Origin: Rubripirellula amarantea
GTDB lineage: Bacteria; Planctomycetota; Planctomycetia; Pirellulales; Pirellulaceae
Assembly (NCBI RefSeq): GCF_007859865.1
Contig: NZ_SJPI01000001.1
Coordinates: 2,232,001-2,296,000 of the forward strand
Direction: 5' to 3'
Length of the DNA stretch: 64,000 bases
Shown: positions 2,896 to 8,712 of the stretch, piece by piece
Numbering within the stretch: the stretch's first letter is position 1
Layout: each line of letters begins with the position of its first letter
Program-made: the position numbers and the translations under genes
Notes under the pieces: model-generated
Told to the model about the DNA's origin: nothing
Seen by the model: the letters and a program-made list of their open reading frames with translations, nothing else
Databases searched by the model: none

Positions 2896-3807
2896 TTAGG
2901 GCACTATGGAATCATGCGGAAAGAGCAAGCCGCGAATTAGTTCGACATCGATTTGGGACGACACCATCTCCACCGATCCGTCGAAGCGGCTAAATATCGC
3001 TCCGGCGGGATGGGGCGAACCCCAATTGTTTACGAAACTAATGCCCGGTGCATCGGGTTCGATGATGACGCCTCCACGGACTGTTCCATGACTGCCGCCT
3101 GAAAAGATAGGTTCGTCGTGATGCCATGTTGTGGCTGCATGCACAACCGGATCGAATGCTTTTTCACCTAGCGCGATTGTTTGACTTAGCCCATCCAAGA
3201 TGGCTGAATCTCGCAATGCATCTGGCTTCTGCAGCATGACATATCGGTTGCCCGCGTAGTCGGTCTGCGCCCATGCCCGTCCGGCGGTGGTGTAGTCACC
3301 AAACTCGTCAGTCGTCACTACCGTGGGGTCGGTTCGACTTCGGCTGGGGCAACGGAACAGCGGACCTGCCGACTCGACTTCCATCGTCTCATAAGAGCTT
3401 GGTTGTTCGATCGACGGTAGGATCGCATACGCCCAGCTTCCTGTTTGATCATGAGGCTTCGCACCAGGCAATCCAACGCCCCACCAGAATTGTTCGTTGC
3501 TGTTATTGTCGTACGTACCGATAGTGACCATGGACCCATCGCTAGCACGAATTTTGCTGTCTTCCGAAGGGCCACCGTTCGTGGGAAACGACCTCAGTTT
3601 GTTGAGGTGTAGTTGGAGGCCAAGAGTCAACTGCCGAACATTGTTGAGGCACTGAGTCCGACGTGCAGCTTCACGAGAGTTCTGCAATGCACTGCTCATC
3701 AGCGACAAGAGCAAACCGACGATCGCAATGCAAATCAACAACTCAATCACTGTAAATCCGCAGCGAGATTGCCTTGACTGTTCTTCGCGTATTTGAATGC
3801 CTTGCAT
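2896..3807 (-). CDS. DUF1559 protein with type IV pilin-like N-terminus
   Basis: The 303-residue product has a short basic leader, then the prepilin motif GFTVIELLICIAIVGLL (cleavage expected after the Gly), followed by SREAARRTQCLNNVRQL, which is the hallmark of the DUF1559 family expanded in planctomycetes. The C-terminal FSRFDGSVEMV matches the family's conserved end (H/F-x-DGSV). Family members are believed to be processed by a prepilin peptidase and anchored through the N-terminal helix; their role is unknown. It is the last gene of the minus-strand series that begins with the Cys-rich peptide at 8607, 42 bases after the glycosyltransferase gene, so it may be co-transcribed with it. Confidence 0.93.
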   Translation of the reverse strand: MQGIQIREEQSRQSRCGFTVIELLICIAIVGLLLSLMSSALQNSREAARRTQCLNNVRQLTLGLQLHLNKLRSFPTNGGPSEDSKIRASDGSMVTIGTYDNNSNEQFWWGVGLPGAKPHDQTGSWAYAILPSIEQPSSYETMEVESAGPLFRCPSRSRTDPTVVTTDEFGDYTTAGRAWAQTDYAGNRYVMLQKPDALRDSAILDGLSQTIALGEKAFDPVVHAATTWHHDEPIFSGGSHGTVRGGVIIEPDAPGISFVNNWGSPHPAGAIFSRFDGSVEMVSSQIDVELIRGLLFPHDSIVP

Positions 3808-3849
3808 CGTTGTATTCCTTTCGCCGCCTATCTAGCGAGTTTGAATGGA

Positions 3850-5580
3850 TCAGTTTTCGTAGACAAAGTGACTTACACCAATTTCGTATGTTGGCTCGCG
3901 GTGGATGTACTGGATTCCCTTTGCCCCTACGAGGTCATGCTTGCTCATCACGGTCCATCGCTGGGCGTCCTGGCTGATGGTCACGTGATCGGGCAAGCCC
4001 ATTGATTCGGGCGTCTGAGAATTGAACCCATTGATTGACACAATGTTGACGGGGCGGATTTCGGGGTGCTGTTCAAGCCATTGCCTTACTAAATAGCAGT
4101 CCTGCCCCCAGTCGGTTGCGTCATTAAAGAGATGCTTATAGCCATCGCGCGAACCGCCTGATGGAAGATTGAAGAACCCCAGCCAATGCGGTGTGGCCCC
4201 GATGCAGGCGACCACTGTCAAGCCAGCACCCGTCCAAGTCAACTTGGCATACCACGACGTCCAATCGACGATCCGAAGCGCAGACGCAGTAAGGAAAAAA
4301 GCGAATGGGTAGAATGGGAAAATGTAGCGATGTTGTTGGGCAAACCCGCTTTTGTAGGCGGTGATCTGTAGCATCGCAAATGCAATCACACCTACCAACG
4401 CCACGTCAATCTTTGCGATCACGGCGAGCTTGCGGTTGCTTTGCATGTAAATACAAACAGCGCTCGCAGTCATTGCGAGCCACGTTCCCGTCGGCAACTT
4501 GACAAGCATTGCGTAGAGATAGAACCACCACCACCCGGTGCCCGATAGCGTGCCAGCGGCGTAGCCTCCTAAGCCCGTTTCAAAGTCATACTGTTGGCGA
4601 TCCATCCCCACGACAAATTCTTGAGGTACGGGCATTGGTAAGTTAGCAAACCAACGTTCTCGATATCGTGGTGGAGTTTGCTCCCAAGTTGTGCCGATGG
4701 GTTGGTCGGTTAAAAAACAAACTTCGCCAATTGGTTTGCCGACGCCCTCGAAACGATATGGCACCGCAATCGTCCCCAGCGAAACCGCGACCGCTAACAG
4801 TGATTGCAGAATGACTGTAGATCGCCCATGCCGATTACCTACGACCACATAGATCGCGAATACCAAGAAGAACGGCCACAACAATAGAGCGGTGAATTTG
4901 CATAGCGTAGCGAAGCCGAGCGAGAAGCCACCTGCAATCGAGCGAGCCCACGTTGGTGTGCGGCACCAGGCTGCAAACAGAAAGCAAGCAATCAACATGC
5001 TGGCCGCGACAGGGACATCGTTAGTGATCAGTGATCCATGAGCGATAATTTCGGGTTGGAACGCCCATAACGTCGCGGCCAACAGGCCACCGGGTTTACC
5101 AAAACAAATGGACCCCCAATAAAACAACGTCAGGGTACCCATCACCGCAAACGAGCCAACCAGCAAGCGTCCGAGAAACAGGTGTCGTTGAAATTCTTCC
5201 GGATATCGAGCGAACAACTGATGGCCATCGTCAAACTCAAAACGGCCGCGAGCAACGTGATCTGCTGATGTCCGCTCTTGTTCCCCCACGCCGGTTCGGC
5301 GCTCCGAATCAATAATTGGCACATCATTCCAAAGGAGATAAGCAGGCAGAGTTCCGATGGCACGTATCAATGGCGGATTGACATTGAAGGTTTCGATGTC
5401 GCGGTGCTTCCAGTACTGCAAGCCCGCATAGAAATGACCAAACTCATCTCGCACCGGAGAACTTCGATAAGCGGATACGACTAGAAAGGTAATTTGAACG
5501 ACACAGACGGCGATCAACAGCAACTTTAACCAATCGCAGTTTCTGGTCCGCTGCTCAGTATGACGAGACTGTTCACTCAT
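3850..5580 (-). CDS. Polytopic GT-C (GT39/PMT-like) glycosyltransferase
   Basis: A 576-residue integral membrane protein with roughly ten hydrophobic segments. After the first membrane segment comes RDEFGHFYAGLQYW, the acidic first-loop motif (Asp45-Glu46) expected of GT-C enzymes that use polyprenyl-phosphate sugars, then NPPLIRAIGTLPAYLLW. The long soluble C-terminal part (DWGQDCYLVRQWLEQHP) resembles the luminal part of planctomycete and verrucomicrobial PMT-like proteins. The likely reaction is transfer of a sugar from a lipid carrier to an exported acceptor; the acceptor is unknown. Its ATG overlaps the end of the upstream DUF1573 gene by 8 bases (ATGAGTGA), which indicates translational coupling. 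Confidence 0.8.
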   Translation of the reverse strand: MSEQSRHTEQRTRNCDWLKLLLIAVCVVQITFLVVSAYRSSPVRDEFGHFYAGLQYWKHRDIETFNVNPPLIRAIGTLPAYLLWNDVPIIDSERRTGVGEQERTSADHVARGRFEFDDGHQLFARYPEEFQRHLFLGRLLVGSFAVMGTLTLFYWGSICFGKPGGLLAATLWAFQPEIIAHGSLITNDVPVAASMLIACFLFAAWCRTPTWARSIAGGFSLGFATLCKFTALLLWPFFLVFAIYVVVGNRHGRSTVILQSLLAVAVSLGTIAVPYRFEGVGKPIGEVCFLTDQPIGTTWEQTPPRYRERWFANLPMPVPQEFVVGMDRQQYDFETGLGGYAAGTLSGTGWWWFYLYAMLVKLPTGTWLAMTASAVCIYMQSNRKLAVIAKIDVALVGVIAFAMLQITAYKSGFAQQHRYIFPFYPFAFFLTASALRIVDWTSWYAKLTWTGAGLTVVACIGATPHWLGFFNLPSGGSRDGYKHLFNDATDWGQDCYLVRQWLEQHPEIRPVNIVSINGFNSQTPESMGLPDHVTISQDAQRWTVMSKHDLVGAKGIQYIHREPTYEIGVSHFVYEN

Positions 5581-6292
5581 CTCGTAGATCCACGATGATG
5601 AATACGTCGATGGTCGAAAAACTATTTGAGTGTCCTACCTCTAACCGCACTTGTTGGTGGTGGAAACCACGTCGCTTTGTTTGCTGGTTGCCGCGAACGA
5701 TCAAACGAAATGTATTGGTGTCCTCGAAGTCGGATTCGTCCAAGCTGACAAGCAATGGAGCGTCAGTCGGCAACGGTTCAAGCTTGATTCCCGTAAGCAG
5801 TATTTGATGCTCATTGCGAATGTGATAGGGAATTACAAGCTCCTCTTGCGAATTTACCGGAACGACACCGGCAAACGTTTTCTGAGGAATGATCACGAGC
5901 GGCCTTTTGCCCTCGAAACGTATCGTCGTTTCGCACAAAATCTGATCGTTGGCGATCGCTTGCACGCGATAACTGTTCGGGCCGCCAAAAACGTCTGTGA
6001 ATCGCAGTTCGATCTTGCGACTCGAATCCGGTTCTAACTCGATCGGACCTTCATCAGTCTCGATGCAGTTACAACTACCAGCGACACGGTCAACTCGTAT
6101 GGTGGATTTACCCGGATTGTGAAGCTCAACCACCCGGGTTTCGTTCTCGCCGGATTGAATCGATCCAAAATTGTATTCCTGTTCAGAAAACTCCGGCGTT
6201 TGGATTGGTTTGGATTGTTCGCATCCAACACCAAGAGCTATCAGACAAGTAAGGAAACTGAAACGTACTTTATCCAAACTTAGACTAGCCAA
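5573..6292 (-). CDS. DUF1573 lipoprotein
   Basis: The mature part opens with YNFGSIQSGENETRVVELHN and includes GSCNCIETDEG, the Cys-x-Cys strand typical of DUF1573, an Ig-like domain family common in planctomycetes and Bacteroidetes. A second beta domain follows (IPYHIRNEHQILLTGIKLE). A lipobox is visible (LIALGVGC), so the protein should be anchored to a membrane. The frame extends upstream to an ATG at 6403, but that would overlap the previous gene by about 110 bases; a TTG at 6292, two bases after the previous stop, gives a normal lipoprotein signal and is preferred. The product is then about 239 residues. Function unknown; it is sandwiched between a C39-like peptidase and a glycosyltransferase. 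Confidence 0.82.
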   Translation of the reverse strand: MASLSLDKVRFSFLTCLIALGVGCEQSKPIQTPEFSEQEYNFGSIQSGENETRVVELHNPGKSTIRVDRVAGSCNCIETDEGPIELEPDSSRKIELRFTDVFGGPNSYRVQAIANDQILCETTIRFEGKRPLVIIPQKTFAGVVPVNSQEELVIPYHIRNEHQILLTGIKLEPLPTDAPLLVSLDESDFEDTNTFRLIVRGNQQTKRRGFHHQQVRLEVGHSNSFSTIDVFIIVDLRDE

Positions 6293-6293
6293 T

Positions 6294-6989
6294 TTATTGC
6301 TCCGATCGTGTTCGTTTTGCAATGGCAACAAAAACCAGAGCCAAGAGCCCGGCCAAAGTTGTCCAACCGGATTGAACAAGATGCGAACAAAATGACGTAG
6401 CAATTTGCAATGTGGATGGTTCTAGCGATTCGGTTGCGATGACCATGATCGGAATTTCCGTAGTGCCTTCAATTTCAAACGTGAACAATTCGTTGGTTTG
6501 CGAGTCTAGCAAAACAGCGTTGCCATTCGCTTCGATCGTACGAAGGACGACGAAGTGCCCTAAAGATTCCCTTTTGAGGTCTGTTGACGTTGGCGCCATC
6601 CATGCAATCGCTGATGCACCGCGGTTTAGCAAGTGATTGACATGTGGGGCGTTATGTTGCTCGAGAAGCATCGCACGGGTGTTAAGACCAAGCGACTTGA
6701 TCGCTTGTTCGATATCACCAAGGGTTACAAACGGTGATTGCATAAGCTGCGTAGTTGCCTCGTTTCGGGACCACGTAGCTCCTATCTCATCCGCACAGAA
6801 CCTCGCACTGTCGTAGCCACAAAAACCGGCGGTCGCCACCTTCGGGGCAGCGTTCACGGTGCTGGTATCCCCAACCGTTTGCTGCTGGGCGAACGCTTGA
6901 TCCGAAAGAAGGCTGCAAGCAGTAAGCAACGCTGCCTTCATTGACAACATCAATGGTGCGTTGCCAGCGTTCCTGTGTGAACTACGCAT
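6294..6989 (-). CDS. Membrane-anchored C39-like cysteine peptidase
   Basis: 231 residues: signal peptide up to about QAFA (34), a C39-like papain-fold domain, and a C-terminal membrane helix (LAGLLALVFVAIA) followed by a basic end. The catalytic triad can be traced: Cys57 in CGYDSARFCADEIG, His144 in GHFVVLRTI, and Asp161 in AVLLDSQTN. C39 peptidases normally form the N-terminal part of bacteriocin ABC exporters and cut after double glycine in leader peptides; here the domain is free-standing and predicted to face the periplasm. The oxyanion Gln of the family is not obvious. Its ATG overlaps the stop of the upstream gene by 8 bases. A natural substrate candidate is the Cys-rich peptide encoded upstream (inference). 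Confidence 0.75.
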   Translation of the reverse strand: MRSSHRNAGNAPLMLSMKAALLTACSLLSDQAFAQQQTVGDTSTVNAAPKVATAGFCGYDSARFCADEIGATWSRNEATTQLMQSPFVTLGDIEQAIKSLGLNTRAMLLEQHNAPHVNHLLNRGASAIAWMAPTSTDLKRESLGHFVVLRTIEANGNAVLLDSQTNELFTFEIEGTTEIPIMVIATESLEPSTLQIATSFCSHLVQSGWTTLAGLLALVFVAIAKRTRSEQ

Positions 6990-8106
6990 CGACTGTTTCC
7001 TGTCGCCACGACCGCAGCAGCAACAACCCGATGATGGCGATGGCCAGCCCCACGTTGATCCAAACGAAGGGCACTTTTTTCGCTTTGACGTTCGATCGTA
7101 GGTTCTCAGCAGAACGTGCTCGAATGCTCTTTAGTTGATCCGAAGTAAAGGGGATTTCTTCGATCTTCGTTTGTTCCTCGTGCCATACAACTGTGCCGGT
7201 TGGCCACGGCGGGAACCAATCATAAGAAGCCAGTTCGGCTTCGTCCAACTCAGTGACCTCGAGAAGTTGGAACTCCTGAGTCTGAGAGTAGGTCACACGT
7301 TTTCCCTTTTGGGGATAGCGATAGTTGCCGTAGAGGACGAGTTCTGAAACCGACATCCCCTGAACCACCTTGCTATGCGGCGTGACGTTGTGATCCCAAC
7401 TTTCAAGCGTCAGGTACTCTGGCCAAGAACTGACCACGTATTGCAGATTCGCCCCTTCCGGAAGTTCTGACTTAAACTCCAACGCATCGCGGTCGGCAGT
7501 GTGCTTAACCTTCATGATCGTGAAATCATCTTTGACGGATTCCAAAGGCTCGTGGTCGACGATTCCATCAAATTTGTATACCGCCGGTGTGAGCGCGTTT
7601 AAGAATGGGTCATCCAAAACGACGGCTATGTTGATACCTGCGAGAACGCTGGCGGAGGAATTGGGGTTCCAGTTGGTGAAGTCGACCAATAGATCTCGCC
7701 AAAACACTCTCGATTCTTTGCCATCGAAACCCGAGAAGTAAGTCATCAAGGGATCTTCGTCCGTGTGCGGTTCGCCACGGTTCTGTTGAAAATGAACCAT
7801 GCAAATGGGCACCGAGCTTCTGCCCTGGCTCCGACGTCCAATGACAAGCTCACGAGTACCTTCGTAAAGAATATCTCCCTTGCTTAGATAGATGCCTCCC
7901 GGTTCAGCTTCTGGGTGTTCGGTGATTTTGATTTCATATCGATACTTCTTTCCGAAGAAGTAGTCGCGGTTCCAAGCGACTCGGCGAATTTCATCAGCAT
8001 TGGGGATATCGTCCGCCATGCCTGTTGCCGACCATGTCACGACAAACAGGCAAGCTAAATGGATACCCGTAAATGTGCTGATGCTAAGAATCGTGAAACG
8101 AAACAC
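6982..8106 (-). CDS. Exported single-pass membrane protein of unknown function
   Basis: I do not recognise the family. The 374-residue product has a signal peptide ending near TGMADD, a large extracytoplasmic part rich in beta-strand patterns (YRYEIKITEHPEA, ELVIGRRSQG, VTYSQTQEFQLLEVTEL) and a C-terminal membrane helix (FVWINVGLAIAIIGLLLL) ending in RSWRQ. This topology, with the bulk outside and a short basic cytoplasmic tail, is the same as that of the C39-like peptidase encoded directly after it, with which it overlaps by 8 bases. The beta-rich layout would be compatible with a LolA-like or substrate-holding fold, but that is a guess. It lies 81 bases after the Cys-rich peptide gene. Confidence 0.8.
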   Translation of the reverse strand: MFRFTILSISTFTGIHLACLFVVTWSATGMADDIPNADEIRRVAWNRDYFFGKKYRYEIKITEHPEAEPGGIYLSKGDILYEGTRELVIGRRSQGRSSVPICMVHFQQNRGEPHTDEDPLMTYFSGFDGKESRVFWRDLLVDFTNWNPNSSASVLAGINIAVVLDDPFLNALTPAVYKFDGIVDHEPLESVKDDFTIMKVKHTADRDALEFKSELPEGANLQYVVSSWPEYLTLESWDHNVTPHSKVVQGMSVSELVLYGNYRYPQKGKRVTYSQTQEFQLLEVTELDEAELASYDWFPPWPTGTVVWHEEQTKIEEIPFTSDQLKSIRARSAENLRSNVKAKKVPFVWINVGLAIAIIGLLLLRSWRQETVDA

Positions 8107-8187
8107 AAAACACCACGTCTTGACCGAGGCTTAGAAGTAACAACTTTGAGACTGACAAGGGATAGAGCGCACCCCAAATAGCGAGAC

Positions 8188-8607
8188 TCAATTACAGGTC
8201 AGGAAATTGCCGCATGTTCCAGCACCGGTCTGGTTCCATGAACGACCTCCGCCAGGATTAGGCGAGCACGTTAGTTTCATACCTGGGCACTTGTCTCCAT
8301 TCACTGCGGGCGGATAGCAATAATCATAAAGAAACGGGTAGCAGCGTTTCTGTTGCATTTGGGAGGTGCACTTATCAATTGTAGAGTTGCCATTACAGGG
8401 AATTCCCGGCCCGGCGCCTTGATAGGTTACCGTGCATACTGAAAGGTCGTCGTCGTAGCAACGTTCTTCCGCTCCATACCCACCAAGTCTGCTCATCAGA
8501 CTTGTGTCATATCCCCAATCAAGTAGCGTGTAATTGGACGACGTTAGCACAGCCATTCCAAGGCAAGCCAACACGCCAAACGTCGAAACCCATCGAAAAA
8601 TTTTCAT
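8188..8607 (-). CDS. Small secreted peptide with ten cysteines
   Basis: The product has 139 residues from the ATG at 8607 (MKIFRWVSTFGVLACLG), which begins a signal or anchor sequence; an upstream in-frame ATG at 8664 would spoil it. Residues 24-43 form a linker ending in SLMSRLGG, and immediately afterwards the sequence changes to a Cys-rich module with ten cysteines (from ERCYDDDLSVC to the final LTCN), enough for five disulfides, plus many Tyr, Pro and Gly. The Gly42-Gly43 pair just before the module looks like a double-glycine cleavage site. It is the first gene of a minus-strand operon with a C39-like peptidase. No known family recognised; a cell-surface or released disulfide-rich peptide is the likely role. 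Confidence 0.72.
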   Translation of the reverse strand: MKIFRWVSTFGVLACLGMAVLTSSNYTLLDWGYDTSLMSRLGGYGAEERCYDDDLSVCTVTYQGAGPGIPCNGNSTIDKCTSQMQQKRCYPFLYDYCYPPAVNGDKCPGMKLTCSPNPGGGRSWNQTGAGTCGNFLTCN

Positions 8608-8687: not shown

Positions 8688-8712
8688 GGGGGGGGCAAGC
8701 CTTTTTTTAAAA
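8688..8712. repeat. G8 and T7A4 homopolymer tracts upstream of the Cys-rich peptide gene
   Basis: Eight G (8688-8695) are followed after six bases by seven T (8702-8708) and four A. They lie about 80-105 bases upstream of the start at 8607, in its presumed promoter or leader. Tracts of this length can slip during replication. Confidence 0.6.

Follow-up and report, generated by a model that had tools for sequence, protein, structure and literature searches.

The 64,000-nucleotide window of the Rubripirellula amarantea genome analysed here carries, on the minus strand between positions 2896 and 8607, a row of six genes whose probable role is the production and maturation of an exported, disulfide-rich peptide, with a C39-like peptidase cutting after a Gly-Gly pair and no C39-type ATP-binding cassette (ABC) exporter taking part. 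The idea that the Cys-rich peptide is processed by an exported C39 enzyme and needs no such exporter was first put forward in a sequence-only reading of this DNA. It is well supported by comparative evidence, because the enzyme is homologous to C39 peptidases, peptide and peptidase genes co-occur, leader statistics exceed expectation, the Gly-Gly pair and the cysteines are conserved, and no C39-ABC fusion was found in the host genome.

The precursor peptide and its leader

The precursor (8188..8607, minus strand) comprises 139 amino acids, with a hydrophobic signal segment, a leader ending in LGG and a core of ten cysteines behind Gly42-Gly43; one additional cysteine lies in the signal segment. 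ATG 8607 is preferred as the start over ATG 8664, since the latter would leave only about 6 bases to the presumed -10 hexamer. The Gly42-Gly43 codons occupy 8479..8484 (minus strand), and the cut is predicted after Gly43. In the window clade, the Gly-Gly pair, ten cysteines, one tryptophan and a CG pair are invariant in all four aligned peptides, one of which (locus L012) holds an in-frame stop. Both features that the sequence-only reading had proposed to check in homologues, the Gly-Gly pair and the cysteines, are conserved within this clade.

A comparison of 14 C39-anchored loci included the window, L012 and L013 (found with P0002, the C39-like protein of the window), L050, L052 and L072 (found with a profile of the partner protein P0003) and L064-L071 (found with a C39 profile). 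A scripted scan detects at least one signal-bearing Cys-rich open reading frame (ORF) near 13 of the 14, the exception being L012 with its single in-frame stop. The strict leader pattern requires a hydrophobic residue at -12, an acid at -8, a hydrophobic residue at -4 and small residues at -2 and -1. It is matched by 8 of 20 candidate ORFs, compared with 0.6 expected from shuffling, a count that keeps artefact-like frames fitting the rules, such as L013 6951-7382 and L066 3927-4430. Strict leaders occur at 8 of the 14 loci, and matching candidates are present in seven of the eight loci found through the C39 profile alone (L064-L071). Examples are LTNTEMQRVLGG in L068, VLATELAAIQGG in L069, LSATEESRLIGG in L071, VTQSEAESLKGG in L067 and LTDAEGSRTFGG in L064.

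The excess of strict leaders recurs in a second set, consisting of the 40 best-ranked phylum matches with open frames below 650 amino acids; the host, G538 (which is in the first set), frames of 650 amino acids or more (ABC size) and lower-ranked matches were set aside, and several of the loci end at contig ends. Here, 8 of 39 candidates fit the pattern, compared with 1.0 expected. In control DNA, none of three ORFs fits, although this control is small. Passages on the peptidase LahT describe a hydrophobic groove for positions -4, -7 and -12 and cleavage sites of the GG, GA and GS type (PMC6363468). Tandem paralogous Cys-rich peptides with GG/GA leaders are located near a stand-alone C39 gene in L111 (2330-2653, 2863-3195 and 3420-3755) and in L113 (2625-3077 and 3132-3590).

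The C39-like peptidase

P0002 (6294..6989, minus strand) is a predicted stand-alone C39 double-glycine-type peptidase of 231 amino acids, with a signal, a C39 domain and a C-terminal transmembrane segment at residues 205-223. Because the N-terminus is signal-like by eye and the transmembrane segment is C-terminal, the C39 domain is predicted to be periplasmic. Profile A12, built from 13 C39 domains of the window enzyme and its relatives, matches structures of ComA (8hf7, E 4.3e-13; 5xe8, E 2.3e-11; 3k8u, E 2.5e-11), PCAT1 (4ry2, E 9.5e-9) and LahT (6mpz, E 2.2e-7). PF03412 matches 11 of the 13 members at E<=0.1, the best being the relative from L068 with 54.3 bits at a cut-off of 22.

The predicted catalytic residues Cys57 (codon 6819..6821, minus strand) and His145 (6555..6557, minus strand) are the same in all 13 members, and the profile alignment places the family cysteine on the cysteine of ComA's DCG motif. 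The putative third catalytic residue, Asp162 (6504..6506, minus strand), was located by eye as an aspartate about 15-18 residues past the histidine; this position holds Asp in 10 of 13 members, Glu in two and neither in L052. An AlphaFold2 (AF2) prediction for P0002, built from 3 sequences at pLDDT 76, has a papain-like fold. Foldseek matches it to CtaG (E 1.1e-4), the HlyB/D complex (E 6.8e-4), a papain-like toxin (9l5u_B, E 3.2e-3, TM-score by target 0.62) and staphopain (E 3.4e-3), and no TM-score by query exceeds 0.47 among the matches listed. Taken together, the profile matches and the invariant Cys and His support the grouping of the window enzyme with C39 double-glycine peptidases, as the sequence-only reading had named it.

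Search for a C39-ABC exporter

The window enzyme has no ABC part. A PF03412 search of the host genome returned four matches (E<=0.01) in frames of 264-342 amino acids, which are too short for a C39-ABC fusion, and therefore no C39-ABC exporter is seen in this genome, in agreement with the earlier proposal. Three of the four frames were inspected; these, in loci L073, L074 and L075, encode other stand-alone C39-domain membrane proteins of the host. A crude [LI]SGGQ scan of frames above 200 amino acids, covering the short flanks of the C39-anchored loci and the first 20 kb of the window, gave one match in these loci, in the L069 gene at the partner position.

Gene row and partner proteins

The peptide gene is followed on the minus strand by the genes for the partner P0003 (6982..8106), the peptidase, a DUF1573 lipoprotein (5573..6292; lipobox assigned by eye), an accessory PMT-type (GT-C) glycosyltransferase (3850..5580) and an accessory DUF1559 (SBP_bac_10) pseudopilin-like protein (2896..3807). 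From peptide to DUF1559, the junctions are a gap of 81 bases, an overlap of 8, a gap of 1, an overlap of 8 and a gap of 42, matching the six-gene row described from the sequence alone. The Pfam cut-offs are exceeded by DUF1573, PMT_2, DUF1559 and N_methyl, and neither Pfam nor NCBIfam gives a match for the Cys-rich peptide or for P0003.

P0003 (374 amino acids) has a signal, a predicted exported domain and a C-terminal transmembrane segment, and its motif WFPPWPTGT is kept in relatives. Its layout, signal plus C-terminal transmembrane segment, is that of P0002. The sequence-only reading had viewed the two as similar membrane-anchored proteins acting as a pair, which is not supported: BLASTP detects no sequence similarity between them (E 44), and only the layout is common. 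P0003 has no Pfam or PDB profile match. A suspected LolA-like identity was dropped, as Pfam, the PDB profile search and an AF2 model (pLDDT 39) gave it no support. Tandem P0003 genes flank the peptide gene on either side in L016 (6088-7242 and 7944-9125).

The C39 domain is fused to DUF1573 behind it in L012, L050, L052 and L072 (the same locus as L033), and the set of GT-C and DUF1559 genes further downstream differs from locus to locus. Decoration and display of the product are guesses, because these two genes come and go. Of the earlier claim that the glycosyltransferase decorates a product, the GT-C gene in the row stands, and a role of this gene or of DUF1559 in the mechanism is weak, as L013 has the trio of peptide, P0003 and C39 alone. 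L045, L046 and L048 retain GT-C and/or DUF1559 genes without an intact peptide or peptidase. In L069 (6571-8211, plus strand), a C39 domain and a DUF1559 pseudopilin share a single open frame, followed by a DUF1573-like gene. A membrane protein that we take to be MauE-like, with a thioredoxin-like CxxC stretch, is encoded upstream of the peptide in L065 (8732-9706, minus strand) and L072 (4429-5337, plus strand); it would suit as a candidate disulfide-forming partner.

Second copy and distribution

The host genome contains a paralogous row, L005, with 58% identity in P0003, 53% in DUF1573 and 69% in GT-C. This copy is decaying: the catalytic part of the peptidase is gone, DUF1559 is divided between two frames, and the peptide frame is broken near an imperfect 22-base tandem repeat in three copies (6447-6510, by eye). 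The broken peptide paralogue keeps LGG. The neighbours of L005 on one side, H-protein-like and radical-SAM genes, occur together in 20 of 21 other genomes of the genus, while the 21st (74% complete) has a weaker H-protein match alone. Because these neighbours are kept in the genus and peptide and peptidase are found in none of the 21 genomes, the row looks like an accessory insertion.

Single-protein searches of the host and 59 relatives had pointed to an orphan confined to the host, which wider and profile searches overturned. The P0002 search matched 4 of 241 family genomes including the host, one of the four being spurious; the match in G241 (L014) looked like a TPR-like protein on inspection by eye and was discarded. 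In the order, 11 of 396 genomes matched the P0003 profile, and in the class, 10 of 327 matched the C39 profile A11. The phylum C39 search matched 78 of 292 genomes, many with ABC-size frames. Order, class and phylum genomes were sampled, and absence counts apply to the genomes drawn.

L012 (the same locus as L015), from Stieleria sedimenti and thus another genus, has the whole row in the same order. Rhodopirellula solitaria CA85 contains both L016 and L013 (the same locus as L017); the contig carrying L013 starts 790 bases upstream. The distant L050, L052 and L072 encode the peptide, P0003 and a C39-transmembrane-DUF1573 protein. Because of the decaying second copy in the same genome and the identical gene order in another genus, the row is more than a chance assembly. 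The co-occurrence of six families expected from the sequence alone is found in part: the order peptide, P0003, C39 recurs in other genera and families, whereas GT-C and DUF1559 are variable.

L045-L049 combine P0003 with one or more of GT-C, DUF1559 and DUF1573, and in none of them is the C39 domain or the peptide intact. At the loci of G204, G201 and G232, both the C39 domain and the peptide are missing or damaged. L007/L026 (G040) was set aside: the protein there is longer, and about 1.5 kb on each side shows neither a peptide gene nor a C39 gene.

A homopolymer upstream of the peptide gene

A C8 homopolymer (8688..8695, minus strand) is located between the promoter-like hexamers TTGCCC (8698-8693) and TACCAT (8676-8671), which are weak, were assigned by eye and are not listed by a general promoter scan. 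Counted from the peptide start, a run of 7-10 C or G begins 71-88 bases upstream in the window, L012 (near 10360), L013 (near 725), L016 (7375) and L072 (about 80 bases before 5687), that is in five of eight order-level loci; it is not present in L005, L050 and L052, nor in any of the 11 class- or phylum-level loci examined. Runs of at least 7 number 13 in 233,719 bases of order-level loci, and five of eight would occur by chance with P ~3e-10, a value from a test chosen after the pattern was seen and from loci that are related.

In L013 and L046, a G10 tract lies, by eye, between TTGACA and TATAGT or TAGGTT. Tract lengths were read from one assembly per genome. The anatomy suggests a slippage-switched promoter and thus possible phase variation of the peptide gene. 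The tract persists upstream of P0003 in L046 (6074, G10) and L049 (6902, G9), loci that have lost the peptide or retain a remnant of it.

Proposed mechanism

In the mechanism that we infer from these comparisons, the N-terminus of the precursor would hold two signals in succession, the first a hydrophobic segment of the Sec type (or a membrane anchor) and the second a short stretch that closes with Gly-Gly. Once Sec has exported the precursor, the membrane-anchored peptidase, with its catalytic domain in the periplasm, would cut behind the Gly-Gly pair and release the ten-Cys core, which probably forms disulfides; no C39-ABC exporter would take part. P0003 may be a conserved partner that holds or carries the substrate, and DUF1573 would be attached to the peptidase or travel with it. 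The glycosyltransferase and the pseudopilin would be accessory, serving decoration or display of the product, and transcription may be phase-variable via the homopolymer in the promoter spacer. The product is most likely a surface or antagonistic peptide.

Weighing of the evidence and alternative explanations

Several observations weigh against maturation by the exported C39 enzyme. The mere proximity of Cys-rich ORFs and C39 genes is weak evidence, as 52 kb of control DNA contain three signal-bearing Cys-rich ORFs; because such ORFs are not rare, the leader pattern is the real test. The window peptide has the Gly-Gly pair, but the -12/-8 pattern is absent from the leader of its clade, and the peptides of L052 and L072 have no clean Gly-Gly (GSS and GRG). 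In the second set, 32 of 40 loci yield no strict leader, two of the strict matches (L108 and L119) seem spurious on inspection by eye, and those printed for L109 and L122 lie just ahead of the actual Gly-Gly in the same ORF. P0003 is not recognised by sequence in the eight class-level loci, some of which hold a gene in a similar place.

Regarding the enzyme, the window protein alone gives Pfam C39 matches of E 0.08 and 0.14, below the cut-off. C39 peptidases are expected to carry an oxyanion glutamine near position -6 of the cysteine, and none is seen at -6 in the family alignment. The role of this glutamine is itself questioned in passages on LahT (PMC6363468).

L016 has an intact peptide next to a deleted C39-DUF1573 gene. 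A peptide kept without its peptidase is what the sequence-only reading had set against its own proposal; it is found at this locus, but not genome-wide, as the same genome has an intact peptidase in L013. The joint loss of peptide and C39 is suggestive but falls short of significance, both for 11 loci (P 0.088; table 3,1,1,6 for the window, L005, L012, L013, L016, L045-L049 and L052) and for seven genomes (P 0.14). L050 and L072, in which both genes appear intact, are outside this table.

Among the alternatives, the best-placed is an antagonism locus, in which the peptide would act as a toxin of the bacteriocin kind and its producer would be shielded by P0003 or DUF1573. The double-glycine leader and disulfide-rich core are bacteriocin-like, the distribution is patchy, duplicated and decaying, and phase variation is possible. 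On the other hand, Pfam, NCBIfam and PADLOC reveal no bacteriocin or immunity family, and the survival of partner and DUF1573 genes beyond the peptide fits orphan immunity without being specific for it. We regard this as a credible minority view. A broader reading as a defence system was dropped, since PADLOC gave no match.

Somewhat less likely is that the N-terminal segment is an uncleaved anchor, so that the inner membrane retains the peptide and cleavage by C39 constitutes regulated release, or shedding, and not the removal of a leader once signal peptidase has acted. By eye, the window signal segment has no obvious signal-peptidase site, and peptidase and partner are themselves predicted to be membrane-anchored; the peptides of L012 and L016, however, have plausible signal-peptidase sites by eye.

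It is improbable that the C39-like protein has ceased to be a peptidase and instead acts on the peptide as a papain-like transferase or cross-linker, or serves to bind it. The top Foldseek matches of the AF2 model are to CtaG, a papain-like enzyme. The sub-threshold C39 match and the missing glutamine point the same way. Against this, profile A12 places ComA far ahead of the CtaG entries (E 4e-13 vs 0.018), the Cys and His are invariant, and the leaders of most relatives end in Gly-Gly.

A chance neighbourhood of surface-protein genes with no common function, as the variable downstream GT-C and DUF1559 genes might suggest, is very improbable in view of the leader statistics, the two rows in one genome and the recurrence of the peptide, partner, C39 order in other genera and families.

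Exported maturation by a free C39 peptidase thus remains the preferred explanation. Its extension to several planctomycete families, with a GG leader behind a Sec signal, a periplasmic free C39 enzyme often joined to DUF1573 and an order-level G/C-tract switch between -35 and -10, is offered tentatively, as a generalisation that could well fail.

Significance and comparison with known systems

The system offers a handle on small uncharacterised Cys-rich secreted proteins in a phylum with unusual envelopes, and a search rule for more: a stand-alone C39 gene adjoining a signal-bearing ORF with a GG leader. The predicted cleavage site is directly testable. Should the homopolymer act as a switch, the peptide would count as a contingency trait, as expected of surface or antagonistic molecules. 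Among the matches listed in a search of the open-access literature, subscription papers being outside its scope, there is no paper on this peptide-C39 system.

NVEALA-type peptides of Bacteroidetes have a hydrophobic N-terminus, a conserved motif and a Cys-containing core; none of the six peptides scanned here matches an NCBIfam family above its cut-off. Bacteroidetocins, likened by description, are Gram-negative peptide toxins related to class IIa bacteriocins, but belong to a different phylum (PMC6671954). The YTV proteins of the cell wall, also likened by description, are Cys-rich planctomycete envelope proteins as well, for which the passages available mention no leader or C39 peptidase (PMC8567305).

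The closest likeness is to the PCAT/AMS exporters ComA, PCAT1 and LahT, whose C39 domain also uses Cys and His and whose substrates have leaders like those of the relatives described here, with a hydrophobic -12, an acid -8, a hydrophobic -4 and Gly-Gly. In the textbook case, the ABC pump that exports a peptide also cuts off its double-glycine leader, by means of a peptidase domain. Here, in contrast, the peptidase stands alone: it has a signal and a transmembrane segment of its own and no ABC part, and is fused to DUF1573 in several relatives, while in the substrate a hydrophobic export-type segment precedes the leader. The system, with relatives in several planctomycete families, is therefore best seen as double-glycine peptide maturation in altered form, in which peptidase and pump are separated and export is apparently handed to a signal peptide.

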